Below are positions 25,601 to 41,940 of a DNA stretch of 42,799 nucleotides, in pieces; the stretch's first letter is position 1; every line of letters begins with the position of its first letter. The notes under the pieces were generated by a model. That model was not told where the DNA came from and did no database searches. It saw nothing but the letters and a program-made list of their open reading frames with translations. This DNA is from Flavobacteriaceae bacterium. GTDB lineage: Bacteria; Bacteroidota; Bacteroidia; Flavobacteriales; Flavobacteriaceae. Location: contig JABDNT010000081.1 in assembly GCA_013043685.1 (NCBI GenBank), positions 1 through 42,799 of the forward strand, in the 5' to 3' direction. The translations under genes and the position numbers were made by a program.

Positions 25601-25622
25601 AATTGTTGATTTAACTAGTTTA

Positions 25623-26441: not shown

Positions 26442-26478
26442 AAGTTTTGGATTAAGATTTATTTCAATAATTACAGTG

Positions 26479-26486
26479 CAAACATA
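26479..26486 (-). promoter_or_regulatory. -7 promoter element (TATGTTTG) of the GT2-manA operon
   Basis: On the minus strand this reads TATGTTTG, an exact TAnnTTTG match, 38 bases before the GT2 ATG. No -33 TTG is seen at proper spacing, consistent with activator dependence. The inverted repeat GTCGA-gttt-TCGAC (26508-26521) lies just upstream of it. Confidence 0.55.
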
Positions 26487-26530
26487 TCTCGAACATGCAG
26501 GTATTCTGTCGAGTTTTCGACGGGTGAAAG

Positions 26531-26567
26531 ATTAGTATAGACGAATGCCGTTTATCGACAGACGTAC
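26531..26567 (+). promoter_or_regulatory. putative LytTR-type operator, copy a (two half-sites, 21-bp period)
   Basis: ATTAGTATAGACGAAT (26531) and TTATCGACAGACGTAC (26552) are two copies of the locus motif 21 bp apart; the second is divergent but keeps TTA and AGACG. The second half-site starts 32 bp before the -7 element TATCTTTG (26584) of the 1028-residue protein gene, so a bound activator would sit over the -33 region. It could also affect the divergent GT2-manA promoter. Confidence 0.55.
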
Positions 26568-26583
26568 CATTGAACGAATCCCC

Positions 26584-26591
26584 TATCTTTG
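26584..26591 (+). promoter_or_regulatory. -7 promoter element (TATCTTTG) of the exopolysaccharide operon
   Basis: TATCTTTG matches TAnnTTTG exactly, 36 bases before ATG 26628. The TTG at 26570 is only 11 bp upstream, so no normal -33 element is present; the direct-repeat operator occupies that position instead. Confidence 0.6.
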
Positions 26592-26627
26592 GAATCGTTA
26601 AACCTTAATGCTTTTATTATCACTTTA

Positions 26628-29600
26628 ATGGAGAATCGATCCAATAAATACTTGATAGTTGCCTTAGTTTTCGGGATAGCGTTTCATGGGACTTCGATGT
26701 TCTTCACTTTGGAATCCACTTATGATGCACTTATCCATGTATTTTTTGGTAATCACTACGCAACAAGCTGGTTCGAACCATGGAACGAAAGTTGGTATAC
26801 TGGTTTCACGGTGATGGGTTATCCTCCTTTGGTGCATCAGGCTATCGCATTACTTTCGGGTCTGGGAGGATTAAAATTCGGAATGTTTGTGATAGCCATC
26901 ACAGGGGTGATTCTGTTTATTACAGGTGTCTATCGATTTACTCTTTTACTCACTTCGAACAGGACTATTGGGGGTTATGCAGCCATATTGGCTGTATTTT
27001 CATCTTCATTTGTAGAGACCCTTCATTTATTCGGACAATTACCAAGCATCATTGGCATTTCCATATTACTGCATGCCTTACCGGAAATCTATTTATGGCT
27101 TAAAACAGGTAAATACTGGTACCTGGTCACTTCGTTTTCGTTGCTGTCCATTACGGTTACCTCCCATCATGTCACACCCATATTTGGTATGGTATTCTTT
27201 ATTTTTCCACTAATTGGGATGGTACTTATGGATGCGTCCCGGGAAAGGGTTTCGGGATGGGAACAAATTACATTAAAGGTTTTTGTGAAATCATTCTATA
27301 CCCATCTGAAAAGGATTCTGGTATTCGGGTTGGGTTCATTAGTGCTTATTATTATCTGTATACTCCCCTATTGGATCAACACAAAGGACAATCCGATTAC
27401 CCAGGTTCCAATACCACATGGTTCGAGGGATAATTTTATAGAGGTAAGTTCATCCGGGCTGGTATTCTTTTTAATTCCATGGGGTGTATTACTTATTCTA
27501 TTACCTTACCTGTTCTATCGTTATTACAGCAAACGTTATCTGTTCTTCGGACTTTCATTTTCGCTCTTAACTCTCTTGGGTACAGGGGGAACCACTCCCC
27601 TTCCACTGAAGATTCTGGGTGAAAACGCCTTCAATATCTTAACGCTGGATCGATTCACGTTATGGGCCTCAATTATGGCACTGCCGATGTTCGGGGAATT
27701 TACCTATCGTTTTGTTGAAGGAGATCTCAAACGATATATGCAAAATAAATGGGGAGCAGTTTATCACCGTTTGAGCGGTGGAATTCTGTTAACTGTTTTT
27801 TTATTTATGACGGTCTTTTCGATGAGTTTGGGATATTTCAGACCATCTCAACCCAAAAAGATCGATACGCTGCCACTGGTCAACTTTCTGAATCAGGACC
27901 AGCATGATAAGTGGCGGTACTTGCCTTTGGGCTTTGGTGATCAAATGGCCTGGCTTTCCACACAAACCAAGGCTTCTACCATAGACGGTAATTATCATTC
28001 TGCTCGGCGATTGCCAGAGCTGACCTCAAGGGCTGTCGAACGACTGGAGAATTCAAAATTCAGAGGAGTTGAAGGCCTCGGGTCGTTGCAACAATTTCTA
28101 ACGATCCCCGAAAAATATCATCTCAAGTACGTTTTCTCGAACGATAAATTCTATGATCCCATCTTATATTTTACCGGATGGCACAGACTTCAGCGACTTG
28201 AAAATGGTATCATGGTTTGGGAAAGGGAAGGTGTTTCTCCAATGCCCTCTAAAATTTCAAAGAAAGAGGTGCCGCTTTATCAGAAATTGATGTGGGGGAT
28301 AATTCCAATATTAACTGTAATTATTGCATTTTTTCTAAACATAAATCAGTTATGGAAAAGGTCCTTCAAAATTGGTAATCATGAGCAACCAGTTTATATG
28401 GCCTTCAAAAAAGAATTCTTTAAATACAATAGCCAGCTTATGGCCGTAAGCCGAATATGGGCTGTGACTATTTCAGTTCTTGTTTTGTTTGGGGTTTATT
28501 CATTTTATATGAAAAATGCAACTCAGATATCCCCGGAAAATACGGTTATTGCCTATTACGACGCATTGGACTTTAAAGAATTTGAAAAATCGTATGGTTT
28601 GATTAATCCTAAGAGTGAAAAAACACTAGATCAATACATGTTGGAAATTTCCGTCACCGACGGGCTTCTTAGCTCATATGCGAAATTAGATGCAATTGAA
28701 GTGAAAATGTTATCGGAAACCGATTCCACAGCGACCGCAGAAGCCAAAATGAAATGGATAACTCCATTGGAGACCTATAACAAATCTGTGAAGCACCAAT
28801 TGAGGAAAATCAAAGGTAATTGGTTCCTGGAACCTTCGGATATAGATGTTGATATCCCGCCGGATCAATTATTTATTCGAAAAAAAGCAAACTATTTTAA
28901 ACATGGGCGAAGACGGATTTCTTCAGAACAAACCTATCATGAAGATGTTTTAAAACAGCCGGCTATTGAAGTCCTGTCGGCCAGTCTTGTTTATGCGAAC
29001 AATTCCTATCATATTGTGGGTGAAATACAGAATATCGATAATATTCCGGCTGATGTTTCTATGAGAGGAACATTGTATTCGAAAGACAACAGGGAATTAA
29101 CCACCTATAATGCTAAAGATATATTGAAACATAAATTATTGCCAAAAGAAACATCCGTTTTTCGAATTGATTTTGAAGATGCGATATGGAGTGAAGAAAC
29201 CAAGTCACTGCCGGCTACTTTTAATCCAAAACAGTTCACCCCTGTTACTATAAAAGACGATATCAGTTCTTTCAATCTACAAGTAGAGGCGAATATCGCA
29301 ACAACCGATTTGCACAATGACCTGGCAATAGCAGATTTAATTCTTAATGAAGGCAAAGCTGAAGGTATAATCTACAATTCGGGTATTGAAAATGCGACCA
29401 TACCACAGCTATTAGTATCCTTCAGAGATAGGAATCGCAAATTGATATGGGTAGAAAAAAAGTATCTGGAAGAAAGTGTGCGAGCCCAGAGAAAATATAG
29501 GTTCGAATATATAATTCCGAAGATTTCATCTATTGATTTACTGAGTTCTTCACTCCAATACGTCTTTGTTAATGGTCTGCCTAATAATGAGATCAGTAAA

Positions 29601-29714
29601 AAGTTGATACCTGAACGGAAAGAGACACAGTATTACCTTGAACTACAAGAGGCAATATCACCCTTCAGATTTATCGATTTTAATTTGAACTATTACGTTG
29701 GAAATCCAAGATAA
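26628..29714 (+). CDS. large membrane protein, GT-C/PTPS-related-like, with periplasmic NTF2-like and beta-sandwich domains
   Basis: From ATG 26628 the product has 1028 residues; a TTG at 26589 would overlap the -7 element and is rejected. Residues 1-400 hold about ten membrane segments with an early acidic motif ESTYDALIHV (Asp33, His37) and WFEPWNESWY...MGYPPL, resembling GT-C glycosyltransferases and the 'PTPS-related' membrane family. A soluble loop (400-540), two more TM segments (~548-570 and 607-625), an NTF2-like domain (~632-740) and a FxLYD-like beta domain (~777-850) plus a second beta domain follow. I infer a polyprenyl-linked-sugar-using transferase or polymerase, not proven. It heads a three-gene operon with no gap to the next gene. 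Confidence 0.7.
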   Translation: MENRSNKYLIVALVFGIAFHGTSMFFTLESTYDALIHVFFGNHYATSWFEPWNESWYTGFTVMGYPPLVHQAIALLSGLGGLKFGMFVIAITGVILFITGVYRFTLLLTSNRTIGGYAAILAVFSSSFVETLHLFGQLPSIIGISILLHALPEIYLWLKTGKYWYLVTSFSLLSITVTSHHVTPIFGMVFFIFPLIGMVLMDASRERVSGWEQITLKVFVKSFYTHLKRILVFGLGSLVLIIICILPYWINTKDNPITQVPIPHGSRDNFIEVSSSGLVFFLIPWGVLLILLPYLFYRYYSKRYLFFGLSFSLLTLLGTGGTTPLPLKILGENAFNILTLDRFTLWASIMALPMFGEFTYRFVEGDLKRYMQNKWGAVYHRLSGGILLTVFLFMTVFSMSLGYFRPSQPKKIDTLPLVNFLNQDQHDKWRYLPLGFGDQMAWLSTQTKASTIDGNYHSARRLPELTSRAVERLENSKFRGVEGLGSLQQFLTIPEKYHLKYVFSNDKFYDPILYFTGWHRLQRLENGIMVWEREGVSPMPSKISKKEVPLYQKLMWGIIPILTVIIAFFLNINQLWKRSFKIGNHEQPVYMAFKKEFFKYNSQLMAVSRIWAVTISVLVLFGVYSFYMKNATQISPENTVIAYYDALDFKEFEKSYGLINPKSEKTLDQYMLEISVTDGLLSSYAKLDAIEVKMLSETDSTATAEAKMKWITPLETYNKSVKHQLRKIKGNWFLEPSDIDVDIPPDQLFIRKKANYFKHGRRRISSEQTYHEDVLKQPAIEVLSASLVYANNSYHIVGEIQNIDNIPADVSMRGTLYSKDNRELTTYNAKDILKHKLLPKETSVFRIDFEDAIWSEETKSLPATFNPKQFTPVTIKDDISSFNLQVEANIATTDLHNDLAIADLILNEGKAEGIIYNSGIENATIPQLLVSFRDRNRKLIWVEKKYLEESVRAQRKYRFEYIIPKISSIDLLSSSLQYVFVNGLPNNEISKKLIPERKETQYYLELQEAISPFRFIDFNLNYYVGNPR

Positions 29715-30980
29715 ATGATACTGAGTCGAAAACATATTATTTTATTTAGCGTGTTATTATTGCTTCAGCTGTTATTCTCATCCATGATATTTCAGAAGTT
29801 ACCGCCTTCGGATAGCCTTATTATGATAACTCGCGGAGAACTATTGATTAAGAATGATCAATTCATAGCAGGGGATCCTATTTCCATCGATTATCGTATA
29901 ACTCTGGCAGACACAATAGGTAAAAATGAATCGACTTATACTGTACACTTGTTGGTGATTTCGGCATATGGAAGCAGTCTTCTTCAGGGACAAATCACTG
30001 AAACCGGAATGAATTTTGTGATTCCCGAAGAGATTGCGCGAAAATCTGGAGACCTGGATTTGCGTTTAATTCATAATAAACGATTACTGGATTCTAAAAC
30101 TATTACTATTACTTCGAAAACAAATTCCGGAGTGATAATGGAAAATTATCTCGGTCCGCCAAGTATGACTGCAGGCGCTAAAGACTTTTCCATGATGGTG
30201 GTAATGCCGACGGACGAATTCGATAATCTGCTTCCTGACAGCACTTTGGTTTCGATGCGGGAGCAAATAGATGAAACCATCATTTCAACGGATCTGTATG
30301 TAGTAAACGGCTATGCATGGAAGAATATTTACAGCACCGAAAAAGCTGAAAAAGTATTCGTTTCAGCAGAATGTTTAGGAGTAAATTCGAAGGAGATGGA
30401 GACCAAAATACGTCCTTCTTATCCTGTTGATTTCGGTATTTTTGCCATGCGCACCCATAATTATGCCGATGGGAATCAAATTGTGTCACTCAGCACTTCG
30501 TTAATAAAAGATGTCTTCGGAAATATTATTGCCGATGGCACCGTGGTCACGTTTACAATAATCACATCGGATGGTCATAAACTAAGTACATCAGGAGCTA
30601 TCCTCAACGGGGTGGCTGAAGCACAGATACTCCATCCTGATCACTCTGTATCCTGGAAGATCAAAGGGGTGATTTCGGGAATTGCCGAAAGCGAGCGAAT
30701 AACTATAGAATTCGAGAGTATTACGAGGTATTTAAAAGTTCATTTTTCCAAAGATGGTGGAAAATTATTCGTGGGGCCACTTACCAGTTATATGGATCAA
30801 CTTGCACCCGATGGAACCGAGGTCTCTTTATATACAGGTGATCGCTTCATTACAAGAAAATCATCTCTTAACGGGGTGGTAGTTTTCGATCTTAGACAGC
30901 ACGAATTTGAATTGGCAGAAAACGAAATTACGGTTAATGCGCTTGGACTTTCCAGGACATTAAAACTAAAATCAGAGTGA
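29715..30980 (+). CDS. membrane-anchored periplasmic beta-sandwich protein, unknown
   Basis: This 421-residue protein has an N-terminal membrane anchor (residues 8-26) and then only beta-rich sequence: about four Ig-like/macroglobulin-like domains, one with DVFGNIIADGTVVTFTIITSDGH, the pattern of invasin-type or Big_1 Ig domains, and another similar at the end (LAPDGTEVSLYTGDRF). I do not recognise a catalytic motif. The ATG directly follows the upstream stop, and its own stop overlaps the next start (GTGA), so it is fixed within the operon. It may be a periplasmic scaffold linking the GT-C-like protein and the GH5-like enzyme. Confidence 0.7.
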   Translation: MILSRKHIILFSVLLLLQLLFSSMIFQKLPPSDSLIMITRGELLIKNDQFIAGDPISIDYRITLADTIGKNESTYTVHLLVISAYGSSLLQGQITETGMNFVIPEEIARKSGDLDLRLIHNKRLLDSKTITITSKTNSGVIMENYLGPPSMTAGAKDFSMMVVMPTDEFDNLLPDSTLVSMREQIDETIISTDLYVVNGYAWKNIYSTEKAEKVFVSAECLGVNSKEMETKIRPSYPVDFGIFAMRTHNYADGNQIVSLSTSLIKDVFGNIIADGTVVTFTIITSDGHKLSTSGAILNGVAEAQILHPDHSVSWKIKGVISGIAESERITIEFESITRYLKVHFSKDGGKLFVGPLTSYMDQLAPDGTEVSLYTGDRFITRKSSLNGVVVFDLRQHEFELAENEITVNALGLSRTLKLKSE

Positions 30981-32491
30981 AAAAGAACAGATTCATATAT
31001 CGCGTTTTAATATTGACTGCTTTTTTGCTTATTAATGCGTTATTGTTATTCGGAATCGGGGAAGTATATTCCTATCTCAACAGCGGAGCAGACAAAGCCG
31101 GGATCTTTCATGGAGATCTTAGAGGAGATATAAATTATCATCCGGAAATAAAATGGGACATCACAACCAATAAGGGTCTCGAGATTTCACCCACGGTTGT
31201 AAAAGATATCGTCGACGACTATAAACTAGCATGGTTTATTCGAAATAATGCACTGTATTCCCTGGAAGATACAGGAATTGCCGACCTCTATACAGCTAAT
31301 GCCAGAGAGGAATTATACAATTTAATAGAGCTAAACAAAAAAACAGGAGTCTCTATTGAATCAACCACCTTATCGCATAATCTGCAAATAGATTTTTTCA
31401 GCGCTGATGGTAAGATTATTTCCTTTATCGATAAGGATGTAACGGGCTTCAGCAGGGTAACTAAACATGACGAGTTTGTCTATGAGGCAAATAATACGGC
31501 CAGTTACAAAGTTATAATGCTGCTTGAAGATGGGTTTTGGCGTATTCGCCATTTGGTGCGTACTTCTTCTGAAGAAACTGAAACAATGATCCGGGAAACA
31601 ATTCCTTTAATTGAGCCAATAGCTGGAATAAACTACTATCCTCAGGATTCGGCCTGGGATACTTTTGGTGAAAAATTTAATGAGGCTACAATTAAAAAGG
31701 AACTTACCCTGATAAAAGATCTGGGACTAAACACCATTCGTATCTTTGTAAATTATAAAGATTTTGGAGGAGCCGATGTAAGAGGAGGCAAACTAAACAA
31801 GCTATCCCGGCTGCTCGATCTTTCCAACGCCGAGGATATAAACGTGATAATAACGCTTTTTGATTTCTATGGCGATTATTCCATAAAGGAATGGACGGCC
31901 ACCCGTGAACATGCAAAGACGATAGTGAATTCGGTGAAAGAACATCCGGCCTTATTGGGATGGGATGTGAAGAATGAACCTGATCTCGATTTCGACAATC
32001 GAAATTCCAATGTTGTAAAGTCATGGCTCACTCAGATGTTAAGATATATAAAATATATAGACCCTGAACATCCAGTCACCGTGGGATGGTCAAATCCCGA
32101 ATCTGCCTTAAACCTGGTAAATGAAGTAGATTATATTTCCTTTCATTATTATGAGGATGTCAAATTGCTGGGATCGGCGATCTCCAGGATAAGATCAAAT
32201 ACGAGTAAACCAATGGTTCTCCAGGAGTTCGGCCTATCTACGAATTATAGTTTTTGGAGCCCGTTCGGTAATGATGAAAAGGATCAAGCTGAGTATTACG
32301 AGGCATTCTATAAAATCCAAAAGAGAGATAGCATTCACTATCTCTCATGGACATTATTTGATTTTGAAATTATACCTAAAATCATTTCGGGAAATTCTCC
32401 CTGGAGAAAAATCAAACAATCGAATTTTGGATTAGTCACCATAAGTGGGGCGAAAAAGCCAGCGTTTACAATTATTAAATCAAATCACTAG
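30977..32491 (+). CDS. membrane-anchored GH5-like glycoside hydrolase with N-terminal NTF2-like domain
   Basis: The 504-residue product starts at GTG, overlapping the previous stop. It has an N-terminal anchor (9-29), an NTF2/SnoaL-like domain (~72-198, ending GFWRIRHLVR) and a TIM-barrel of the cellulase/GH5 clan (215-500). The acid/base is in WDVKNEPD (Glu334), the nucleophile in VLQEFG (Glu417), with ISFHYY (His390) and WTLFDF also typical. It would face the periplasm. In exopolysaccharide loci such enzymes trim or release the polymer, as PelA, BcsZ and AlgL do. The TAG overlaps the stop of the converging glycosyltransferase gene in CTAG. Confidence 0.85.
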   Translation: MKKNRFIYRVLILTAFLLINALLLFGIGEVYSYLNSGADKAGIFHGDLRGDINYHPEIKWDITTNKGLEISPTVVKDIVDDYKLAWFIRNNALYSLEDTGIADLYTANAREELYNLIELNKKTGVSIESTTLSHNLQIDFFSADGKIISFIDKDVTGFSRVTKHDEFVYEANNTASYKVIMLLEDGFWRIRHLVRTSSEETETMIRETIPLIEPIAGINYYPQDSAWDTFGEKFNEATIKKELTLIKDLGLNTIRIFVNYKDFGGADVRGGKLNKLSRLLDLSNAEDINVIITLFDFYGDYSIKEWTATREHAKTIVNSVKEHPALLGWDVKNEPDLDFDNRNSNVVKSWLTQMLRYIKYIDPEHPVTVGWSNPESALNLVNEVDYISFHYYEDVKLLGSAISRIRSNTSKPMVLQEFGLSTNYSFWSPFGNDEKDQAEYYEAFYKIQKRDSIHYLSWTLFDFEIIPKIISGNSPWRKIKQSNFGLVTISGAKKPAFTIIKSNH

Positions 32492-33690
32492 GCGGCTATC
32501 TTATTGCGGTTGATTTCTTTAATACCAATTGCATGGAATTCATCTACGTACATATCGGCGATCTTACTCATTGGAAAGGACGTGGCGGCAGCGTAATTCG
32601 CTTTCGCGATCTCCAAACGGTAAGCCTCATCTGTGACTAAATTCTTTATTGCTGCTGCAAGACTTTCATCACTGGTCGGATCAAAAAATTCACCGCGGTA
32701 GCCTTCATCTTTTACCAATCTCGACAGATCTCCCAGATTGGGCATAACTACTGCCTTACCATAACTTCCCGCCTGGTGTAGAACACCTGAACTGCCTGTT
32801 GTAGATGTATAAGGAAATACAACCATAGCGCTTTCTGAAAAGATTCTGGGAACTACTTCTTCTTCCACATAGCCCGTAAATGTCAACATAGGAACTTCGC
32901 TAAATGAGTTTTTTACTCCTTCTAAATATCCCGGTGTATTGGGGTTATCAGTGCCGGCGATTACAATTTCAAGTGGTTGTTTGATTTCCTTGCGTACTAT
33001 TTCAACTGCACGAATTAAGGATTCCACTTTCTTATACGTGCCAAATTTTCCAAAGGTCATTATTTTCAATGGCCCGGATTCTGTTTCATAGGTTGGTGTA
33101 TCCGGAATTTCGAATGTACCATGTGGAATAAGCACCACATTTTTAGCAAGGTATTTCCCCTCTAATTTAGAAACGTAATCATTTATGGTCACCGCAACTC
33201 TATCTGCTTTTAAAACAATTGACGTAAGAAAAGTTCCTATACGGTTGTACACGGCATTTTTCCATTTACTTTGTGTGAAACCGGCACTGTTCAGATCCAC
33301 GGCCTCCATTATATTATGCAAGAGCACAATGGTTGGAATTTTCATCAATTTCGTCAGCCATGGCGAAAAAAGACCCAATGCTGCGGGGATTTTACGATCT
33401 CCAAATTTCATAAACTGAAGATTGTAAAGAATAGCATCGGGTCTCGAATTTTTTATCGCCCTGGCAATTGTGATTACATTTTTGGCACTATTGAATTTCC
33501 AGCATTTTACCACAGACACTTTACAACCGTCTATCTCGGAGTTCAATCCTGTCTCAGCTTCAGAGACATCGGTATACAATACCACTTCTGTTACCCTGTT
33601 ATGATTTCTGAATTGTTTCAGAAGATGAAAAGCATACTCGTTTAAAGTTACTTTACTGGGTGGATATGAAGTTACAATTCCTAATTTCAT
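32488..33690 (-). CDS. GT-B glycosyltransferase (GT4-like)
   Basis: The 400-residue protein is a GT-B enzyme: N-terminal MKLGIVTSYPPSKVTLNEYAFHLL, central IPHGTFEIP and LKIMTFGKFGTYKKVESLIRAVE, and C-terminal GYVEEEVVPRIFSESAMVVFPY followed by GSSGVLHQAGSYGKAVVMP. No signal peptide or TM segments are seen, so it acts in the cytoplasm. At the position of the GT4 EX7E motif it has Thr and Gln, which is unusual. Transcribed after the STAS and Wzx genes but separated from them by a 132-bp gap holding an operator-like motif, so it may have its own promoter. Confidence 0.87.
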   Translation of the reverse strand: MKLGIVTSYPPSKVTLNEYAFHLLKQFRNHNRVTEVVLYTDVSEAETGLNSEIDGCKVSVVKCWKFNSAKNVITIARAIKNSRPDAILYNLQFMKFGDRKIPAALGLFSPWLTKLMKIPTIVLLHNIMEAVDLNSAGFTQSKWKNAVYNRIGTFLTSIVLKADRVAVTINDYVSKLEGKYLAKNVVLIPHGTFEIPDTPTYETESGPLKIMTFGKFGTYKKVESLIRAVEIVRKEIKQPLEIVIAGTDNPNTPGYLEGVKNSFSEVPMLTFTGYVEEEVVPRIFSESAMVVFPYTSTTGSSGVLHQAGSYGKAVVMPNLGDLSRLVKDEGYRGEFFDPTSDESLAAAIKNLVTDEAYRLEIAKANYAAATSFPMSKIADMYVDEFHAIGIKEINRNKIAA

Positions 33691-33774
33691 TATTTCTTGT
33701 TTTAGTTAATTACTTGAATAGTACAAATATCTTTAATAAAGCCCCTGCTCGTGGAATCATTCGACAGACCGGCG

Positions 33775-33811
33775 TTTAGTGTAGATAAATGGTAGAGGAA
33801 TAGCGACAAAA
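33775..33811 (+). promoter_or_regulatory. putative LytTR-type operator, copy b
   Basis: TTTAGTGTAGATAAAT (33775) is a strong copy of the motif; 21 bp on is a weak one, AGGAATAGCGACAAAA. Another related string, TTCGACAGACC (33760), lies just before it. It sits between the flippase and glycosyltransferase genes, about 85 bp before the glycosyltransferase start, with the motif pointing away from that gene. A near -7 element (GATATTTG, minus strand 33731-33724) lies between. Confidence 0.4.
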
Positions 33812-33822
33812 CTATTTTGAAC

Positions 33823-35058
33823 TTATCTGGCAAATCGACGAAAATAACCAACTTGCAGAGCCAGTAATACCCCCATTGCCGTGATTTGCATTAAAACGAC
33901 CTCGAACAGATTGTTGTGAAAGAACAGAATGAGTATGATCTGAACAATACCCATAACGGCGGCAAACAAAATTGGCCGGTAGTGATCTAAGGATAGAAAG
34001 TAATACGCAAATACATTTGATATAGCAAATAACCCGGTGGCTAACGCATACCATCCCAAAAGAGGTGAAATCTCCAGAAATCCTTCTCCAAATAATATTC
34101 GAACTGCGAAATCGGGGAATATAAAGGTGAAACTCACGATTGCAATGCACAATAGTGTGATGTAAAATAAATATTTTGATAGTATGGGTATTGTATTCAA
34201 ACCCTCTTTTCGGTATTGAATAACCTTCGGAAGTAACAACATTACAAACATCCATGTGATGAAATATACCACCCTTCCTATAAGTGCTAAAGACGCATAT
34301 AAACCAGCATCATAAGCTTCGAAGAAATGCTTTACCAGAAGAATGTCACTGTTATTACATATAATTAACGTTCCTTCATAACTAGCCGAGATGATCAAGA
34401 AACTCAATATCCGCTTTTGGTTTGCAGCAGAGATCTTACCCTTTACTTTTCTGAATCCGGCCATCGATTTAAATGGAAAAAGGCCTGCAATCATAGAAAC
34501 GGCGATTCCAATTGCCACTCCTACCGAAGAACTGATCTGAAAAAAGAATAAAATAAAAAAGGTTACCACCAATCTTGTAATCATTTCGAATTGATAGGTG
34601 CCGGAAAGTTGTACAAAATTACTGTTCCCCTGAAATCTTCCTCTGTTCACACTCATGGCGAAATACAAGGGAATAACACAACCAAAAATTGTGAACATCT
34701 CACTCGAAACCGTGTGAAATAACTTTTGAAGATCAGAAGCAAATACCACCATTCCACATCCTAGAATTACTCCAAGAATAATTGCGTTTCGATACATCCA
34801 TTTTACAAATCGAACGCTACTTTCAGAATCGAATTCCAGGGTGAACTTGGCTACCGCCAGTTGATATGTCATCGCTACAAAGGACAAGACCAAAAGTAAT
34901 GTGATGAGAATAGCTGCATCGGCGAACTCGGTGGGCCCGAGGTATCGTCCCAGTATCAAATTATAAGCATAATTCCCTGCATTAACCAGTAATCCACTGA
35001 GCATAAAAATTTGCTCGGACTTCAGCTGGAAGGGTATTTTTTTAGCGAAAGATATCAT
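33823..35058 (-). CDS. Wzx-like polysaccharide flippase
   Basis: The 411-residue protein has twelve hydrophobic segments and the MOP/Wzx layout: LLVNAGNYAYNLILGRYLGPTEFADAAILITLLL at the start, and charged cytoplasmic loops. The GRYLGPTEFADA motif is typical of polysaccharide_synt proteins. It would flip a lipid-linked repeat unit, or act like PelG in a synthase-type system. It lies 10 bases after the STAS gene in the same operon. No Wzy polymerase is obvious nearby unless the 1028-residue membrane protein plays that role. Confidence 0.88.
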   Translation of the reverse strand: MISFAKKIPFQLKSEQIFMLSGLLVNAGNYAYNLILGRYLGPTEFADAAILITLLLVLSFVAMTYQLAVAKFTLEFDSESSVRFVKWMYRNAIILGVILGCGMVVFASDLQKLFHTVSSEMFTIFGCVIPLYFAMSVNRGRFQGNSNFVQLSGTYQFEMITRLVVTFFILFFFQISSSVGVAIGIAVSMIAGLFPFKSMAGFRKVKGKISAANQKRILSFLIISASYEGTLIICNNSDILLVKHFFEAYDAGLYASLALIGRVVYFITWMFVMLLLPKVIQYRKEGLNTIPILSKYLFYITLLCIAIVSFTFIFPDFAVRILFGEGFLEISPLLGWYALATGLFAISNVFAYYFLSLDHYRPILFAAVMGIVQIILILFFHNNLFEVVLMQITAMGVLLALQVGYFRRFAR

Positions 35059-35068
35059 AGGTAAACTA

Positions 35069-35362
35069 TTAAGCTGCGGATAAAACCGTTTGATCTATCA
35101 TGAGGAATGGGCCCAGGATTTTCCTGTTTGGTCCGGAGAAGACCTGAACCATTTTCCCGCTCTTGTTTGCCTCTTCCTTTAATCTTTCCAACATCATAGC
35201 ACCGGAAAGATCGAGATCATCGAGCTTACAAAGACTTATGTTTAAGTTACCGTCGATTTGAAGTTTTGAAATAAAGAAGTTTCTCACTTCATGTGCCTGG
35301 CTACTACAGAGTCTACCCTGTAGTTCGTATACATCGTCTGTTTTCGTAATTTTTAATGCCAT
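35069..35362 (-). CDS. STAS-domain protein
   Basis: The 97-residue protein is a single STAS domain (KITKTDDVYELQGRLCSSQAHEVRNFF...ISLCKLDDLDLSGAMMLERLKEEANKSGK). The LDLSG Ser corresponds to the phosphorylated Ser of SpoIIAA-type anti-anti-sigma factors. It could act in a partner-switching pathway, but no anti-sigma kinase or PP2C phosphatase is seen in the window. It is the first gene of the operon with the flippase, so it may instead bind and control a transport or synthesis protein directly. Confidence 0.85.
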   Translation of the reverse strand: MALKITKTDDVYELQGRLCSSQAHEVRNFFISKLQIDGNLNISLCKLDDLDLSGAMMLERLKEEANKSGKMVQVFSGPNRKILGPFLMIDQTVLSAA

Positions 35363-35586
35363 TTCTATTTATTTAAATATTAATTGACTCTTTTTAATAA
35401 ATCCTTCGTGTACAGGTTATGAACTATAGACAATGTGTTATCTATTGTATAATTGTTGTTTTTGTAAACCACCCTTAATTTGTTCATACTGTTATTTACC
35501 ACAAGTTTCATTTGAATGTTTTTTTATTTCTACTGCAAATATCCTGTAAGAGAATAGCTAAAAAGGAGAATATCGATGAGTTGAAA

Positions 35587-35602
35587 TTTGGTGTAGACGA
35601 AA
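35587..35602 (+). promoter_or_regulatory. putative LytTR-type half-site, copy c
   Basis: TTTGGTGTAGACGAAA is 13 of 16 identical to the best copy at 41904. A partner 21 bp on (35608, ATTATTACATATAAAG) is weak at best, so this may be a single site. Confidence 0.4.
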
Positions 35603-35741
35603 GGTAAATTATTACATATAAAGGGGCATTTTCTTCAAATTCAATTTCACAGAACACAGAAACCACAAAATCAGTTAAGTATTTGTTATCGCGCAATACC
35701 TAATTGACCTTCGCGCACATGTTAATCACTCCGATATACCA

Positions 35742-35778
35742 ATTAGTGTCGGTGAACGGTAGCGAAGTATAGATTAAA
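35742..35778 (+). promoter_or_regulatory. putative LytTR-type operator, copy d (two half-sites, 21-bp period)
   Basis: ATTAGTGTCGGTGAAC (35742) and CGAAGTATAGATTAAA (35763) are spaced exactly 21 bp. The second starts 33 bp before a -7-like TACCTTG (35796), nearly the same geometry as copy a, and the exporter gene starts at 35822. Confidence 0.55.
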
Positions 35779-35821
35779 ACTGACCACTCTGATCTTACCT
35801 TGCAAATAGAAAATTCAACGT

Positions 35822-37852
35822 ATGAAAGCAACATTTACAGCACTATTGTCCTTATGTTTTGCCATGATTTCAGCACAGGAAATGAATCCGGGATTCGATC
35901 TGTTGGAAGCAGGAAAATATCAAGATGCTGAGGAATTCTTTTTTGAGGTTATCCGGGAATATCCTGAAAACAAAACAGCCAGGCTATGCTATGGCAGAGC
36001 GATAGGATTGAATGGAAAACCTGAACTTGCCAGGGACGTCTTCGCCCGGTTGCTCGAACTATATCCTGCAGACCTTGAATTAAAACTTAATTTCGCCGAA
36101 TCCCTTTTATGGAATAAAGAATTTGAAAATGCGAAGAAGTATTATGAAGTCCTTATCGTGCAGAACGAAAATAGCTTTCCAATTCTTCTGGGCTACGCAA
36201 ACACTCTTTCAAATCTGAAGCAGTACAATATGGCCTTAGAGTATATCGAAAGGGCGTTGAAGATCGAGTCTTCGAATCCTAACGCACTGATCAGTAGAAA
36301 ATATATTCGATTGGGATTGGCATCAAAACAGGTTGAGAATAATCAATCAGACAAGGCATTAGCGTTATTGAACCAGAACCTGGAAGAATTTCCGAACGAC
36401 CAAGATACTAGACTAAGTATGATCAATCTTCACTTATTAAATAATAATCTGGACGAGGCAGAGGCGGAATACCTTACCCTCAAGGATAGTATTACTGCCC
36501 TTACAGGACTTTCCTTGATATCTCACAAACGCAGAAAAGAAAAACTCGCCTTACAATGGGCTTCCAAAGCAAATAAACTGGCCGAAATTAGCCATGATTC
36601 AACAAAAATACTAATGGCTCATGAACGTTATATACAAGCGTTGATATGGAATAAGAAATATTCGAAAGCTAAGGAAAGCGTTGAAAAACTGGAAGACTTA
36701 TATCCCAGATCAACCACGGTAAAAAGTTTGAAGGCAATGCATGGAATGTACACCGGTAAGATCTCAAACAGCATCCAGGTCTATAAAGATTTATTGGCTA
36801 AAGATTCAACTTCATTCGATGGTAATTTAGGAATTGCGAATGCCTACAGGGCTCAGGGAAATTTTAAGAAGGCCCATAAATATGCTTCGAAGACGCTCCA
36901 GTTCTATCCAAATCAAAAAGATGCACTTTCATTACTAGGTATACTTGAAAAAAGTATGGCACCTGTATCTGTAAATACAGTATCTTACTCTAAGGACAAT
37001 GGCAATAACGAAGCTGTTAGTATTGGCAGTTATCTAGAATTGCCAATTTCAGCTAATACAAAAGGATCTTTAGGTTACACCTATAGAACCACCGAAAATT
37101 TGGATAATGGTGCCATGGCCTATAACACGAATATCACATTTGGTGTAAAGCAGAGGATCATTAATAACACCTGGCTGGAAGGTAGTTTGGGTTTTCTAAA
37201 GGCCAATGCAGAGACGAATTCGTACTCCGATGTAAATGGCTCATTGTTCGTGAGCTCCCGTCCACTTCCAAAACAATACCTAAAAATTGGTTACGGTAGA
37301 GAATTACAAAACTTCAACGCAACCCTGATAGATGAAAAGATCTTTATGAACAATTTCATGGTTAATTACAATATGGGGACAAATTTTGGGCTGGGATGGT
37401 ATACGGGTTATACCTATACTTCTCAAACCGATGACAATGTTCGAAATTTACTTTTTACCTCATTGTATTATCAATTCACTGACAGACCACTATTAAAAGG
37501 AGGGCTTAATTATCAATTTCTTGGTTTTAAAGACCAGGTCCCTGAGCTATATTTCAGTCCGTCAAAATATCAGGCCGTCGAAATATTCTTCGATCTGAGC
37601 GGAAGTAGCGGCAAATGGAATTATTCTTTGAACGGGGCTGGTGGATTTCAATTTGTTGACGAAGACAAGGCTTCATCTCTGTTTAGATTTGAGGGAAAAG
37701 CAGGTTATCAAATATCGGGGCGTTTATTAATAAATGCATATTCAAAATACAGTAATATCGCTTCAGAAACAGCCACGGGGTTTAAATTTACGGAAGTTGG
37801 ACTAAGTATACGATGGCAGTTTTTAAAAGCTCCCGTGTTTCGTTCAAACTAA
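35822..37852 (+). CDS. TPR and YaiO-type outer-membrane barrel, probable polysaccharide exporter
   Basis: The 676-residue protein has a signal peptide (MKATFTALLSLCFAMISAQ), about ten TPR-type helical repeats in residues 20-385 (e.g. NPGFDLLEAGKYQDAEEFFFEVIREYPEN) and a C-terminal outer-membrane barrel of the YaiO class (~390-676, repeated amphipathic strands such as LGWYTGYTYTSQ, ending RWQF near the C-terminus). TPR plus barrel is the plan of PgaA, BcsC, AlgK/AlgE and PelB, which guide a polymer through the periplasm and out. So this is the likely secretion pore of the locus. Its end overlaps the LytTR gene end by 4 bases, tail to tail, and copy d of the operator lies before it. Confidence 0.87.
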   Translation: MKATFTALLSLCFAMISAQEMNPGFDLLEAGKYQDAEEFFFEVIREYPENKTARLCYGRAIGLNGKPELARDVFARLLELYPADLELKLNFAESLLWNKEFENAKKYYEVLIVQNENSFPILLGYANTLSNLKQYNMALEYIERALKIESSNPNALISRKYIRLGLASKQVENNQSDKALALLNQNLEEFPNDQDTRLSMINLHLLNNNLDEAEAEYLTLKDSITALTGLSLISHKRRKEKLALQWASKANKLAEISHDSTKILMAHERYIQALIWNKKYSKAKESVEKLEDLYPRSTTVKSLKAMHGMYTGKISNSIQVYKDLLAKDSTSFDGNLGIANAYRAQGNFKKAHKYASKTLQFYPNQKDALSLLGILEKSMAPVSVNTVSYSKDNGNNEAVSIGSYLELPISANTKGSLGYTYRTTENLDNGAMAYNTNITFGVKQRIINNTWLEGSLGFLKANAETNSYSDVNGSLFVSSRPLPKQYLKIGYGRELQNFNATLIDEKIFMNNFMVNYNMGTNFGLGWYTGYTYTSQTDDNVRNLLFTSLYYQFTDRPLLKGGLNYQFLGFKDQVPELYFSPSKYQAVEIFFDLSGSSGKWNYSLNGAGGFQFVDEDKASSLFRFEGKAGYQISGRLLINAYSKYSNIASETATGFKFTEVGLSIRWQFLKAPVFRSN

Positions 37853-38565
37853 AGTAAATTCAAACGTTTCATCAACTCGGGCCTATTCGATCGACTTATA
37901 GGAATAACATCTTTGGCAATCAGAACACTATTATCTTCAATATCAATTATCTTCTTGATATTTATTATATACGATCTGTGTACCTTTAAGAATAAACTTT
38001 CAGGAAGTTTGTCTTCAATTTTCTTCAGTGAGGAATGTACTGTATAATTTTTATCGTCTGTCTTTATAAGGATATAATCCCCTTTTGCCTCAATGAGGTA
38101 GATCTTCTCAAAATCAATCTTAATTAATCGCCTGTCTATATTAACATAGAGCTCTTTATTTGGCAGTTCCTTTTCCGTCTCGGAAGAAACTTCGGATTTG
38201 GAAGTAACCGATGAGACAAAATTCTCAGCCTTTTGAATTGACTTAAGAAATCGGGGCAATGTAACAGGCTTTACAAGATAATCCACAATGCAATCATATT
38301 CGAAAGCATTAATTGCAAAATTCTTATCTGAAGTAGTTAGAATTATTTTTGGAGGATTTTTTACCGTGTCAATAAAATCGAATCCCGTGAAATCCGGCAT
38401 GTGAATATCGAGAAAAACCAGATCCACATGATTCTTGTTAAGGAATTTTATGGCTTGAATGGCATTCGGAAATTCTTCTACAATTTCTATCGATTCAACC
38501 TGGGAACATAAATGAGCAATAATAGCCCTAGCCGCAGCTTCATCGTCAATTATGATACATTTCAT
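37849..38565 (-). CDS. LytTR-family response regulator
   Basis: The 238-residue protein has a receiver (1-120) with acidic pocket Asp7/Asp8, phospho-acceptor Asp53 (FLDIHMP) and Lys99 (VKP), a linker, then a LytTR DNA-binding domain (~140-238: LIKIDFEKIYLIEAKGDYILIKTDDKNYTVHSSLKKIEDKLPESLFLKVHRSYIIN). LytTR regulators bind paired direct repeats about two helical turns apart and usually activate virulence or surface genes. It is the last gene of the H-NOX operon, probably the output of its phosphorelay. Direct repeats with a 21-bp period occur in the exopolysaccharide locus next door. Confidence 0.93.
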   Translation of the reverse strand: MKCIIIDDEAAARAIIAHLCSQVESIEIVEEFPNAIQAIKFLNKNHVDLVFLDIHMPDFTGFDFIDTVKNPPKIILTTSDKNFAINAFEYDCIVDYLVKPVTLPRFLKSIQKAENFVSSVTSKSEVSSETEKELPNKELYVNIDRRLIKIDFEKIYLIEAKGDYILIKTDDKNYTVHSSLKKIEDKLPESLFLKVHRSYIINIKKIIDIEDNSVLIAKDVIPISRSNRPELMKRLNLL

Positions 38566-38576
38566 TTCCGCTTTAA

Positions 38577-38891
38577 TTATAGTTCAATAATAAATTGGGA
38601 CATCTTTTCAAGTAATTCGTTAAATTTCTCATGTCCTTCCCAACGACCTTCTTTCAACTCCTCTTCATAATCTTCAGCAACCTGATAACCATCAAACATC
38701 CCCAAAATACTAATTTTATGTTTAAGTTTATGAACAATAGCTGCCGCTTGAACATGATCGCTCATAACACAATCCCTATAAACCGCTATTTCGGCTGGCA
38801 ATTCAGACTTAATGATCCCAATAAGTTTTTTTCGGAATTCCATATCATTACCAGAAAGTTCTTCAATTAACGAAAGATTTGGTTCCGACAT
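38577..38891 (-). CDS. HPt (histidine phosphotransfer) protein
   Basis: The 104-residue helical protein carries AAIVHKLKHKISILGM, matching the HPt motif AHxLKGxxxxLG, with the phospho-accepting His at residue 54. It would pass phosphate between two receivers. It lies 11 bases before the LytTR gene and 3 bases after the kinase gene, so it likely links the receiver-only regulator (or the kinase) to the LytTR regulator in a multistep relay. Confidence 0.88.
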   Translation of the reverse strand: MSEPNLSLIEELSGNDMEFRKKLIGIIKSELPAEIAVYRDCVMSDHVQAAAIVHKLKHKISILGMFDGYQVAEDYEEELKEGRWEGHEKFNELLEKMSQFIIEL

Positions 38892-38894
38892 GAC

Positions 38895-40880
38895 TTATTG
38901 TTTTTTCAAGGTAAAATAAAAAGTAGTCCCTTCGCCTTCTTTACTTTCTAGCCAAATAGAGCCCCCATTAGCTGTAACAATTTTCTTTACAATGGAAAGG
39001 CCTATTCCACTGGAATCCTTTTCATCAGTTAGGGATTGGAACATTTGAAAGATTTTATCGTGATATTCCTTTTTAATTCCCATTCCATTATCGGTTATCC
39101 TGAACAGGTACTCTTTCTCTTTATTTTCGAAATCAATTTCTATCAACCCCTTCTCTTTATTATTATAACGAACTGCATTGCTGATCAAGTTTTGGAACAG
39201 TTGCTGCATTCGAATTCCGTTGGCTTTAATTGTGGGTAGTTTAGTTTTGATTTTTATTTCAATGTGTTTCGGGATAAACAGGATGTCGCAAATGTCCTTA
39301 ACCACAGTATTAAGGTTCACCTTGTCTTCTATTTCCTCGGCAGAAAAAATACTGGAGTATGAAAGGACATCGGAAATGAGTTTCTCCATTTTTTCCAGGG
39401 TATTCTCAATAAGCGTAAGATTATGTTGTGTTTCTTCGTTGAACTTGCCCAAATTATCTTCTTTAATCCAGTCTACAAGTGCATAAATACTACGCAGAGG
39501 AGATTTTAAATCATGTGAAACCACGTGAGCATATTCCTGAAGTTCATCATTACTTTTCTCGAGTTGACGGAGCAAAACTTCCTTCTGCTTCTCCAAATTC
39601 TTCATCTCAGTTATATCAAGGTGTACTCCAATCGATCCGATAACTTCACCATTGATATTAAAATTGGGCGCTCCACTTATAAGCCATGTGCGCTCCTCCC
39701 CGGATTTTGTAATCGCAGTTACTTCGTAAGAATTGGATTTACCTTTGATACGCTCATTATTAGCCTCCAGCAATATTTGTTGAGCGGATTTCTTCAACAA
39801 GATTTCCGCACCTTTTTTACCTAATAGTTCATGTTCAAGATATCCACTCATCTGCTCGAAACGCTGATTTACCATTAAGATCTCGTCGTCGTTATTTACT
39901 TCGAGCAGGCCAAGGTTCATATTTGCAATGATGTTGCTGTATTTTTCGCGCTGAGCTTCGAGACTCTTCCTGTACCTCTTGGTGAGGGTAACATCCCTGT
40001 ACGCCCATAAATGTCCTTTGTATTCTTTATCCACGAAGATCGGAATATAGTCTCGTTCAAGTATCTTGCCACTGGCCATGATTAATTCGTCGCCCAGAAT
40101 TATTACGCGATTTTCGAGTAATTCTTCTATACCGAGAACAAAATTTTCTGGATCTTTGAACAAGCTTTTAGTTTCTTCAGCTGCATTCGAACAATCTTGT
40201 CCAATAAGTGCTTCCGGGGGTACAGGAATGCCAAATAAATCGCAGAACTTTTTATTCGTTAAAGCGATCTTTCTGTCTTCGCTTTCGAGCAAGAGACCAC
40301 TATCGAGATTACTCACTAACGTAGCGAGTCGATTCTCAGATTCAATTAATTGTTCCTGTGCTTCTTTTTCTTTAGTTATATCGCGGACGATTCCCTGCGC
40401 AGCAATCGGATTATTCTCAGCATCGTAAATAATGCTGGCGTTAATATGAACCAGTTTCTGCTTGCCCGTTTTCGTGAGTATTCGCACATTAAAATCGGTA
40501 ATAGCTCCATTATCGTAAAGAATCTTAAATGCTTCGGAAACATTTTCTACTTCTTCCTTATGAACTAACTTAGAAAGGTTTATATCTATATCATTGTCCA
40601 GGGAATAGCCTAAGAGATTCTCGGCAGCGACATTCATTTTCAAAACATTCCCCAATAGATCTATCACTACATAGGCATCAACAATATTCTCAAAAACGCC
40701 CTTTAATTCTGAAGTCTTTTCCTGGACCAGACGTTCCAATTTCTTATTGGATACCTTTAATTGCCTTGTAAGGGAAAACAACTCTGCAGATTTATCCTCC
40801 AGGATCTTCTCTGCTAGCTTGCGGGCTGCTCGCTCCCTTTCAAGAGCTCGTTTTAATATAAGCTCTTGTTCCTTACTCAT
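38895..40880 (-). CDS. triple-PAS sensor histidine kinase
   Basis: The 661-residue protein has no membrane segment. It begins with a coiled coil (1-60), then three PAS domains (~62-175, 180-305, 312-430), a HisKA dimerisation domain with phospho-His456 (HVVSHDLKSPLRS) and an HATPase domain: N box NLISNAVRYN (~564-573), G1 DNGMGI (597-602) and G2 SSGIGLSIV (623-631). No receiver is attached, in contrast to many H-NOX partner kinases. The gene starts 8 bases before the H-NOX gene ends. Cytosolic H-NOX proteins bind and inhibit their partner kinase when NO is bound; that is the expected arrangement here. Confidence 0.92.
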   Translation of the reverse strand: MSKEQELILKRALERERAARKLAEKILEDKSAELFSLTRQLKVSNKKLERLVQEKTSELKGVFENIVDAYVVIDLLGNVLKMNVAAENLLGYSLDNDIDINLSKLVHKEEVENVSEAFKILYDNGAITDFNVRILTKTGKQKLVHINASIIYDAENNPIAAQGIVRDITKEKEAQEQLIESENRLATLVSNLDSGLLLESEDRKIALTNKKFCDLFGIPVPPEALIGQDCSNAAEETKSLFKDPENFVLGIEELLENRVIILGDELIMASGKILERDYIPIFVDKEYKGHLWAYRDVTLTKRYRKSLEAQREKYSNIIANMNLGLLEVNNDDEILMVNQRFEQMSGYLEHELLGKKGAEILLKKSAQQILLEANNERIKGKSNSYEVTAITKSGEERTWLISGAPNFNINGEVIGSIGVHLDITEMKNLEKQKEVLLRQLEKSNDELQEYAHVVSHDLKSPLRSIYALVDWIKEDNLGKFNEETQHNLTLIENTLEKMEKLISDVLSYSSIFSAEEIEDKVNLNTVVKDICDILFIPKHIEIKIKTKLPTIKANGIRMQQLFQNLISNAVRYNNKEKGLIEIDFENKEKEYLFRITDNGMGIKKEYHDKIFQMFQSLTDEKDSSGIGLSIVKKIVTANGGSIWLESKEGEGTTFYFTLKKQ

Positions 40881-41415
40881 TTTTCGTTATACTGAAACGC
40901 ACTTCTGTGCCCCTTTCATTCAGTTTTTCCATGATTATTTCTGCCGTTGTGCCGAAATTTTCAAAGGTTTTGTTCATGAGTCCCAAGCCAAAACTATACA
41001 TAGCTCTGCTCGATTTATATAATAATACAATTGAATTTTCCGTCCTGTCCTCAACAGTAAAAGTAGGCAATTCAGCTTTCGGATAAATTTTTCTCACTTC
41101 CACATGTATGTGATCTTCGATAGATGATAACATTTCTATTGGATCTTTATAGCTTTCAATAAGACCCGGGTAGCTGGTTTTTAAAACCGCAAATAAATGC
41201 TCCCCGTAGACAAGGAAAAGATCATCTATCGAAATCCCGCTATTGTTGCTCAGGTTTGTTACCAATGAGAGCATTTCGGAAAAACTATAGGTTCCAACCG
41301 ATGTATAAATACCTTTAGATTCAAGGTTGGATTGTGCAATGATTTGATCTACCATCCCAATTCCGAATTTAGTTTCTACCAATTCAAGAAATTCTGTAAA
41401 AATTATTCCTTTCAT
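40873..41415 (-). CDS. H-NOX haem-nitric oxide sensor protein
   Basis: The 180-residue protein is an H-NOX (HNOB) domain: MKGIIFTEFLELVETKFG, GIYTSVGTYSFSEM, SIEDHIHVEVRKIYPKAELPTF with the proximal haem ligand His104 (His102 is an alternative), and the YxSxR haem-propionate motif YKSSR (Tyr133, Ser135, Arg137). At the position of the O2-stabilising distal Tyr of thermophile H-NOX there is Phe142, so NO-selective binding is expected. It is cytosolic. It overlaps the kinase gene by 8 bases and directly follows the receiver gene. In Vibrio and Shewanella, H-NOX with its kinase HnoK controls biofilm in response to NO. Confidence 0.94.
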   Translation of the reverse strand: MKGIIFTEFLELVETKFGIGMVDQIIAQSNLESKGIYTSVGTYSFSEMLSLVTNLSNNSGISIDDLFLVYGEHLFAVLKTSYPGLIESYKDPIEMLSSIEDHIHVEVRKIYPKAELPTFTVEDRTENSIVLLYKSSRAMYSFGLGLMNKTFENFGTTAEIIMEKLNERGTEVRFSITKNE

Positions 41416-41826
41416 TTACGCTTTTATTAATTCGTTACTACTCCAATAATCGAGTGTCTTATTTATTTTGTTAACGTATTCATCGTATTTAAGTGGTTTC
41501 AGAATATATCCCGCTACCCCAATTTTATAGCATTCAAGGACGTCCTTTCGGTTACTGGAGGTCGTTAAAATAACAATGGGAATATAACGAAGAATTTCGT
41601 CACTCTTCAATATTTTTAGAAATTCCAGTCCGTTTAACCTTGGCATATTTAGGTCAAGGAATATGAGATCCGGAATATTCTCCTGGTGTGATAATAATTC
41701 AAGTGCATTTTCACCGTTCTTTGCTTCAACGAAATGATGCTCCCCGCCGATCTTCTTTATGGCCCTCATCAGTTTCATGACCTCTATCTGGTCATCTTCG
41801 ATCAACATTATTTTTAAATTTTTCAA
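41416..41826 (-). CDS. receiver-only response regulator
   Basis: The 136-residue protein is a single receiver domain with Asp11/Asp12, phospho-Asp58 (IFLDLNMPRLNG), TTS88-90 and Lys110 (LKPLKYDEY); it resembles the Rcp1-type regulators that pair with photoreceptor kinases. The start is TTG at 41826, with a short A+G-rich sequence (AGGA) next to it. It lacks an output domain, so it probably acts as a Spo0F-like phosphate carrier to the HPt protein. It heads the five-gene operon; its stop is directly next to the H-NOX start. Confidence 0.87.
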   Translation of the reverse strand: MKNLKIMLIEDDQIEVMKLMRAIKKIGGEHHFVEAKNGENALELLSHQENIPDLIFLDLNMPRLNGLEFLKILKSDEILRYIPIVILTTSSNRKDVLECYKIGVAGYILKPLKYDEYVNKINKTLDYWSSNELIKA

Positions 41827-41841
41827 TCCTGGTAAGTTTTA

Positions 41842-41868
41842 TTTTAACTTCAAAAATGCAAGTTAAAA
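41842..41868. repeat. 9-bp perfect inverted repeat in the leader of the signalling operon
   Basis: TTTTAACTT (41842-41850) and AAGTTAAAA (41860-41868) form a perfect dyad with a 9-base gap, 15 bp before the TTG start of the receiver gene. A second dyad, TTTACC (41875) / GGTAAA (41891), lies beside it. Could be binding sites of a dimeric regulator or a leader hairpin. I do not recognise the owner. Confidence 0.5.
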
Positions 41869-41903
41869 CTGTAATTTACCGTTATATTTAGGTAAAACAC
41901 TCT

Positions 41904-41940
41904 TTAAGTGTAGACGAATAACGCTTAAGTGTCGACCAAT
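41904..41940 (+). promoter_or_regulatory. best copy of the putative LytTR-type operator (copy e)
   Basis: TTAAGTGTAGACGAAT (41904) and TTAAGTGTCGACCAAT (41925) are 14 of 16 identical and exactly 21 bp apart. This is the geometry of LytTR binding sites. It lies in the 171-bp gap between the divergent signalling operon and the M23 gene, so it could be an autoregulatory site or serve the M23 gene. Confidence 0.6.

Follow-up and report, generated by a model that had tools for sequence, protein, structure and literature searches.

Tandem 21-bp repeats as probable operators of a LytTR regulator that would link an H-NOX relay to exopolysaccharide genes in Flavobacteriaceae

A motif repeated with a 21-bp period recurs between the exopolysaccharide (EPS) and H-NOX relay genes of a 42,799-nucleotide contig (JABDNT010000081.1, assembly GCA_013043685.1; the whole stretch is called the window here) from the 3.0-Mb draft genome of a Flavobacteriaceae bacterium. 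We conclude that these repeats very probably form arrays of operators for the LytTR response regulator whose gene lies at 37849, the last member of a predicted H-NOX, kinase, receiver, HPt and LytTR relay that would drive the EPS genes. An earlier sequence-only reading of the window had proposed that one regulator, likely this one, controls the whole locus, and the comparisons below argue for it: period and half-site fit a LytTR protein, the arrays are conserved and phased to -7 boxes, and they track the orthologues of this LytTR lineage. To our knowledge, few Bacteroidota transcription-factor regulons can be read from sequence. In this one, a nitric oxide (NO) sensor would be tied to matrix production in common marine bacteria through an operator with exact promoter spacing. 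It is also an example of a single operator that faces promoters of two classes, and a purified protein and a reporter, one of each, would suffice to test the regulon.

The word GTRTAGAYNAA has five exact matches in the window, at 26535, 33779, 35591, 35767 and 41908, all on the plus strand and all between the called open reading frames (ORFs) of the locus genes, as first reported. The accompanying estimate of about 0.1 chance matches was a little low: 100 dinucleotide shuffles gave a chance level of 0.33, with at most three matches in one shuffle and five in none. A second copy 21 bp away had been described at 26531, 35742 and 41904, and it is there; however, pairing is not limited to these three places, as all five positions have a 21-bp partner (33758 for 33779, 35570 for 35591). 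The 16-mers at 41904 and 41925 are indeed identical at 14 of 16 positions, counted by eye. For 26535, the upstream partner at 26514 (pair score 20.9) is better than the downstream copy at 26556 (pair score 14.3) with which that site had been paired. The relatives' matrix described below, scanned over both strands of the window, gave no tandem match of 10 or more beyond the five places or in coding DNA. The pairs are direct repeats as described, but they belong to arrays of two or three half-sites in which the promoter-proximal copy is degenerate.

We found H-NOX homologues in 16 of the 60 genomes searched, the window's own genome included, and compared the window with the corresponding regions of 14 of the 15 relatives (G042 was left out). 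EPS genes adjoin the relay in G005, G020, G016, G014, G032, G017, G007 and G024 and lie about 20 kb beyond it in G025; in G017 the LytTR orthologue is on a different contig, and H-NOX is likewise separate from the LytTR region. From 18 half-sites that precede the receiver-H-NOX operon in nine relatives we derived a matrix of 16 columns, taking as training pairs those that best matched GTGTMGACGAAT upstream of the receiver gene. Six of the 15 regions were left out of the training: the window, G024 with a weak pair, and G015, G017, G049 and G038 with no clear pair. Across the 15 regions (578 kb) the matrix gave 42 tandem matches of at least 16, against 0.47 (maximum 2) for permuted matrices. Named loci centred on LytTR were then added, the best 80 of at least 546 relatives, most of them in genera that we take to belong to Flavobacteriaceae (exceptions by title are L181, L202, L203 and L207). 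In 98 regions (2.25 Mb) there were 248 tandem sites of at least 15, spread over 90 regions that include the window and the nine training regions, against 3.3 (maximum 14) for permuted matrices and 3 in reversed sequence; the 42 matches and the 248 sites both contain all nine pairs used in training as well as four sites of the window. At 11 other spacings the count was 7 to 69; a period of 21 bp agrees with a LytTR-type direct repeat.

The sites stand at the same genes from region to region, which establishes conservation at orthologous promoters, and 244 of the 248 fall outside any ORF with homology to a window gene. Two regions, G014 and L195, are the same contig; without the duplicate there are 246 sites, 244 of one orientation and 188 with a -7 box. 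Other regions have shorter identical stretches in common and all are related by descent, so the sites are not independent events. A single half-site, STRTMGAYGAATG, had 36 matches in 13 same-family H-NOX genomes, of which 25 fell in the relay or EPS region; the reversed control gave 9. In 24 other same-family genomes it had 13 matches (control 19).

Relative to the LytTR gene, 246 of the 248 sites are oriented alike, whichever way the nearest gene runs. This uniformity is explained by a -7 box that stands on a fixed side of the array. At 190 of 248 sites a TAnnTTTG box (at least five of six letters) is found at a distance of 26/27 or 47/48 bases from the motif, on its 5' side as first written, compared with a mean of 7.6 (maximum 20) over 73 control offsets and of 13.2 (maximum 24) on the motif-forward side; the four offsets were picked after viewing the offset profile. 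Because the two pairs of offsets differ by 21, that is by one repeat, the arrays hold two or three copies. In the sense of the promoter the half-site reads CCATTCRTCKACAC, head to tail every 21 bp, and the degenerate proximal copy (about CATCGAAA) ends 26/27 bp before the sigma-A -7 box. A TTG element is expected at -33, 18-24 bases ahead of the -7 box. Among the 190 promoters with a good -7 box, TTG was not enriched 18-24 bases before the -7 start, which suggests that the LytTR regulator takes the place of the -33 element.

At 218 of the 248 sites an ORF in the sense direction, 90 amino acids or longer, begins within 260 bases. The genes downstream are the receiver-H-NOX operon (83 sites), STAS (35), a protein of about 860 amino acids with a type IX secretion system (T9SS) tail (31), GT4 (27), GT2 (7) and flippase (6), followed by smaller target groups, several of which resemble other EPS genes by reading. 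The sequence-only reading had looked for -7-like elements on the motif-forward side. That stands for the copy at 35767, where the box is conserved in relatives, and more thinly for the 26531 pair, where a candidate box exists and the main promoter is on the minus strand; the main direction of transcription is the opposite one. A forward-only reading of the promoters was therefore dropped as the main direction, with forward TAnnTTTG at background, and was kept for the TPR gene and weakly for the 1041-amino-acid gene.

In many relatives, a single array in the TPR-barrel/STAS intergenic region appears to serve a divergent TAnnTTGY promoter as well. TA[AC][CT]TTGC stands at offset 17 past the array, an offset chosen after reading the sites, at 29 of 43 TPR-class sites versus 1 of 203 other minus-oriented sites (28 of 42 versus 1 of 202 after removal of the duplicate genome). 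The predicted TAACTTGC promoter of the TPR gene has a box that fits the SM5 consensus TAnnTTGY, which was described beside the sigma-A box TAnnTTTG in Flavobacterium psychrophilum (PMC9723704). The same intergenic region of the window holds two arrays, 35570/35591 toward STAS and 35746/35767 toward the TPR gene; the latter scores 20.8 by the matrix, and no TAnnTTTG was seen on its other side. Ahead of the 1041-amino-acid gene, TATCTTT[AG] occurs at offset 27, 37 or 48 in six of eight sites of this class. The start of this gene is more likely ATG 26628 than TTG 26589, since the TTG start overlaps the predicted -7 box.

We propose that phosphorylated LytTR would bind the arrays and activate the EPS and relay promoters, sitting about where a -33 element would be. 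Phosphate would pass from the histidine kinase to the stand-alone receiver, then to HPt and LytTR, a path that is likely because no receiver domain was found among the Pfam hits of the kinase. NO-bound H-NOX would inhibit the kinase and thereby lower the expression of both the EPS genes and the operon that encodes the relay. This sign is argued by analogy with Vibrio: the V. parahaemolyticus H-NOX, once NO is bound, inhibits its own kinase, from which an HPt is fed (PMC6759604), and the V. fischeri protein has an inhibitory effect on the pathway to the syp EPS genes (PMC8738867). It is the weakest step of the mechanism, since NO raises biofilm elsewhere (PMC8738867).

Among 95 LytTR-bearing regions, H-NOX is encoded in 83, FIST (NosP-like; assigned by Pfam on one representative) in 50, and both in 48. 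There is perhaps an even chance of a wider circuit, in which H-NOX and, at roughly half of the loci, NosP-like FIST would act as two haem NO sensors, each with a kinase, and converge on one HPt and one LytTR activator, whose 21-bp-phased operator would replace -33 at several EPS promoters and could drive two -7 types from one array, as a switch widespread in marine Flavobacteriaceae. In G020 (L062:1934-4131) a FIST protein and then a second, short kinase lie between the H-NOX kinase and the HPt gene, and in the Polaribacter loci L208 and L216 FIST is present and H-NOX was not detected.

The frequency of the two sensors also bears on a reading in which the LytTR-EPS circuit exists but responds mainly to a signal other than NO, with H-NOX modulating a PAS kinase that senses something else. 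The kinase does carry PAS domains, and H-NOX was not detected in 12 of the 95 regions (some of them from contig ends; in G017 it is on another contig), several of which keep their arrays (among such loci, G011, L183 and L209). We regard this as unlikely, though deserving of some weight, given the presence of H-NOX in most regions and of FIST in about half.

It is likewise unlikely that the same operator and regulator serve repression, or both repression and activation, in which case NO would raise EPS. Only 17 bp separate the end of the strong half-site from the -7 box at the TPR promoter, and a regulator bound there could obstruct polymerase; in some species, moreover, biofilm rises when NO acts through H-NOX (PMC8738867). 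Against repression, the array lies wholly upstream of -7 on the sense side and TTG is not enriched at the -33 place, as expected of activator-dependent promoters.

The linkage of the arrays to this LytTR lineage was examined with a 76-position sequence-only array model made from 67 named-locus sites, with no window sequence, and run on the 60 genomes. The 67 sites came from 154 candidates preselected for a -7 score of at least 5, so the -7 columns of the model are selected (the offset test above used all 248 sites), and the search, which used stricter filters, scored the best 80 first-look candidates per genome. The four best matches in the own genome were window promoters (35604-35535, 41920-41848, 33794-33721 and 26547-26476; E 8.4e-8 to 1.2e-6), those of STAS-flippase, the H-NOX operon, GT4 and GT2, a result at odds with an even spread of the motif over the genome; a fifth, at C82 (E 3.6e-4), lies inside an ORF and was set aside. 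The short word GTRTMGAYSAA had 32 matches in this genome versus 22 for the reversed control and is too short to judge by; its matches in the window were the ones taken further. Of the 14 genomes whose LytTR orthologue is 60% identical or more, 11 reached a best E below 1e-4, against 1 of the 46 without such an orthologue, the exception being G038, which has a 52% relative. In G008, an EPS cluster and the gene of a T9SS-secreted protein lie off the LytTR contig and both still carry arrays.

These results make it quite improbable that the arrays are bound by a LytTR paralogue or some other factor and that the LytTR protein at 37849 is merely a neighbour. The own genome does encode five other LytTR proteins; however, the arrays follow the 37849 orthologue across genomes, including the loci that lack a detected H-NOX, and no match better than E 0.046 was found at 20 loci (2-3.3 kb) of LytTR paralogues or distant relatives. 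Nor was another relay protein with a DNA-binding domain found among the Pfam hits. A non-regulatory nature of the repeats, whether REP-like, mobile or replication-related, is hardly credible: their near-uniform orientation along the locus at first pointed away from promoters, but they are phased to -7 boxes, a plus-oriented site in L225 (one of two such sites) precedes a minus-strand gene, so that orientation follows the gene there, and among the 80 candidates scored in the own genome the array model gave no further strong match between genes. A polarity due to replication or a mobile element was rejected on the same ground, the -7 phasing accounting for the orientation.

Several observations weigh against an operator of this one regulator. 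Spacings of 17, 31, 42 and more also exceed the null, an excess that is probably due in part to three-copy arrays. No site of at least 14 was found in L203, L208 and L216, and sites of 15 or more are absent from 8 of the 98 regions; G049 and G038 have H-NOX and no matrix match of 10 or more in their regions. Since sites are missing in some regions, operator or regulator diverges in places. Three orthologue-bearing genomes gave no strong array-model match (G007, 8.9e-4; G017, 0.011; G024, none), and weak matches, E 0.01-0.1, occur in most genomes and carry no meaning. In the window itself, the -7 box of the receiver operon is non-consensus and stands at offset 49. The increase of biofilm by NO through H-NOX in some bacteria, cited above, speaks against the proposed sign of the response.

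The known binding sites of LytTR regulators are imperfect direct repeats, 8-13 bp long and separated by about 12 bp, and the core of the AlgR site is CCGTTCGTC (PMC4064291), in agreement with the paired repeats assumed in the sequence-only reading. The operators of AgrA, VirR, PlnC/D and FsrA in the same paper consist, as here, of imperfect direct repeats with gaps of about 12 bp (period about 21) next to a LytTR response regulator; unlike them, the arrays have two or three copies, the degenerate proximal one locked 26/27 bp from a Bacteroidota -7 box. The half-site CCATTCRTC has one mismatch to the AlgR core, and two if R is A. In Pseudomonas aeruginosa, AlgR is likewise a LytTR regulator of exopolysaccharide genes (those for alginate), and the available excerpt of PMC4064291 mentions no H-NOX relay for it. 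Biofilm or EPS is also steered by H-NOX, kinase, receiver and HPt in the Vibrio H-NOX/HqsK-LuxU-LuxO (PMC6759604) and V. fischeri H-NOX/HahK-SypF-syp (PMC8738867) systems; HqsK is a hybrid kinase, whereas here the receiver is separate, the output is LytTR, and sensor and EPS genes share one locus. The F. psychrophilum motifs SM1-3 (TAnnTTTG) and SM5 (TAnnTTGY) are the same two boxes as on the two sides of the array; LytTR does not appear in the main text of PMC9723704, whereas here one array faces both promoter types. LytTR and H-NOX are both named in PMC6769237, which concerns AgrA nitrosylation, and in PMC8396549. No description of this circuit in Bacteroidota was found in the literature searched, which misses most subscription journals.

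Table 1. Predicted arrays, promoters and genes of the locus (positions in the window; E values from the array model searched against the window unless stated).
Feature	Position	Strand	Details
H-NOX operon array and promoter	41848..41940	-	Half-sites 41929-41940, 41908-41919; degenerate third copy about 41887-41898; -7-like CATTTTTG 41858-41851; E 2.3e-9 (genome-wide 2.0e-7) for 41920-41848; matrix tandem score 42.1; sites of this class in 81 regions, 80 distinct
STAS-flippase array and promoter	35535..35604	-	Half-sites 35591-35602, 35570-35581; -7-like GATATTTG 35543-35536; E 1.2e-9; matrix 26.6; class in 35 regions
Second array, facing the divergent TPR-barrel gene	35746..35803	+	Half-sites 35746-35757, 35767-35778; SM5-type -7 box TACCTTGC 35796-35803
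GT4 array and promoter	33721..33794	-	Half-sites 33779-33790, 33758-33769; -7-like GATATTTG 33731-33724; E 1.2e-8; class in 27 regions
GT2 array and promoter (phosphomannose isomerase behind GT2)	26476..26547	-	Half-sites 26535-26546, 26514-26525; exact -7 TATGTTTG 26486-26479; E 1.7e-8; class in 7 regions
Candidate divergent -7 of the 1041-aa membrane-protein operon	26584..26591	+	TATCTTTG; uses the same 26514/26535 array
Stand-alone receiver	41416..41826	-	Pfam Response_reg 1.4e-22
H-NOX (HNOB) haem NO sensor	40873..41415	-	Pfam HNOB 1.8e-37
PAS histidine kinase	38895..40880	-	Pfam PAS, HisKA, HATPase_c
HPt-like phosphotransfer protein	38577..38891	-	No Pfam hit; labelled by reading, motif and position
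LytTR response regulator, proposed binder	37849..38565	-	Pfam Response_reg 2.9e-17, LytTR 4.9e-21
TPR protein, BCSC_C-like C-terminus	35822..37852	+	Pfam TPR families, BCSC_C 3.2e-5
STAS protein	35069-35362	-	Pfam STAS 3.8e-5
Flippase-like membrane protein	33823-35058	-	No Pfam family; labelled by reading
GT4 glycosyltransferase	32488..33690	-	Pfam Glyco_trans_1_4 4.6e-17
Membrane protein (1041 aa), 421-aa protein, GH5-like hydrolase	26628..32491	+	Third: Pfam Cellulase 9.2e-13; first two without family
GT2 glycosyltransferase and type I phosphomannose isomerase	24602..26441	-	Pfam Glycos_transf_2 3e-19, PMI_typeI_cat 8.3e-14

Within the window, only the GT2 promoter has an exact TAnnTTTG, the GT4 array is the weakest by matrix alone (13-14), and the STAS leader would be long, with about 170 bases to the start at 35362. 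The relay genes form a minus-strand operon of receiver, H-NOX, PAS kinase, HPt-like protein and LytTR regulator, and the EPS-type genes that adjoin it encode GT2, phosphomannose isomerase, the large membrane protein, the GH5-like hydrolase, GT4, the flippase-like, STAS and TPR-barrel proteins (Table 1). Orthologues of the LytTR regulator occur in 13 relatives at 60-79% identity. The HPt-like protein has the motif HK[LIM][KRN]HK in 87 of 92 homologues, and YxSxR, the haem-contact motif of H-NOX, is found in 83 of 85 H-NOX homologues; the H-NOX gene stands beside that of a histidine kinase. The stand-alone receiver would occupy a Spo0F-like position in the relay, and the TPR/BCSC_C-like protein is probably an export barrel. 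The flippase and HPt labels and the names of singleton EPS-like genes come from reading or recall.

Outside the core locus, the protein of about 860 amino acids (DUF6923 and Por_Secre_tail on one representative; L179:11878-14457 and 30 other regions, and L258 in G008) is the third commonest array target. Arrays also precede small proteins of 98-160 amino acids that are alike by eye (L172:5828-6124, L161:4110-4445, L176:10838-11152 and 18738-19220 of the G030 region), the one tested giving no Pfam hit. Relay and EPS genes carry arrays in L207, named Portibacter lacus; we take Portibacter to belong to Saprospiraceae, so that L207 is presumably a case of horizontal transfer or a mislabelled genome. 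In G008 (L261:4255-5391), GT2 is fused to an N-terminal receiver (Pfam Response_reg, Glycos_transf_2), which suggests phospho-control of the enzyme itself.

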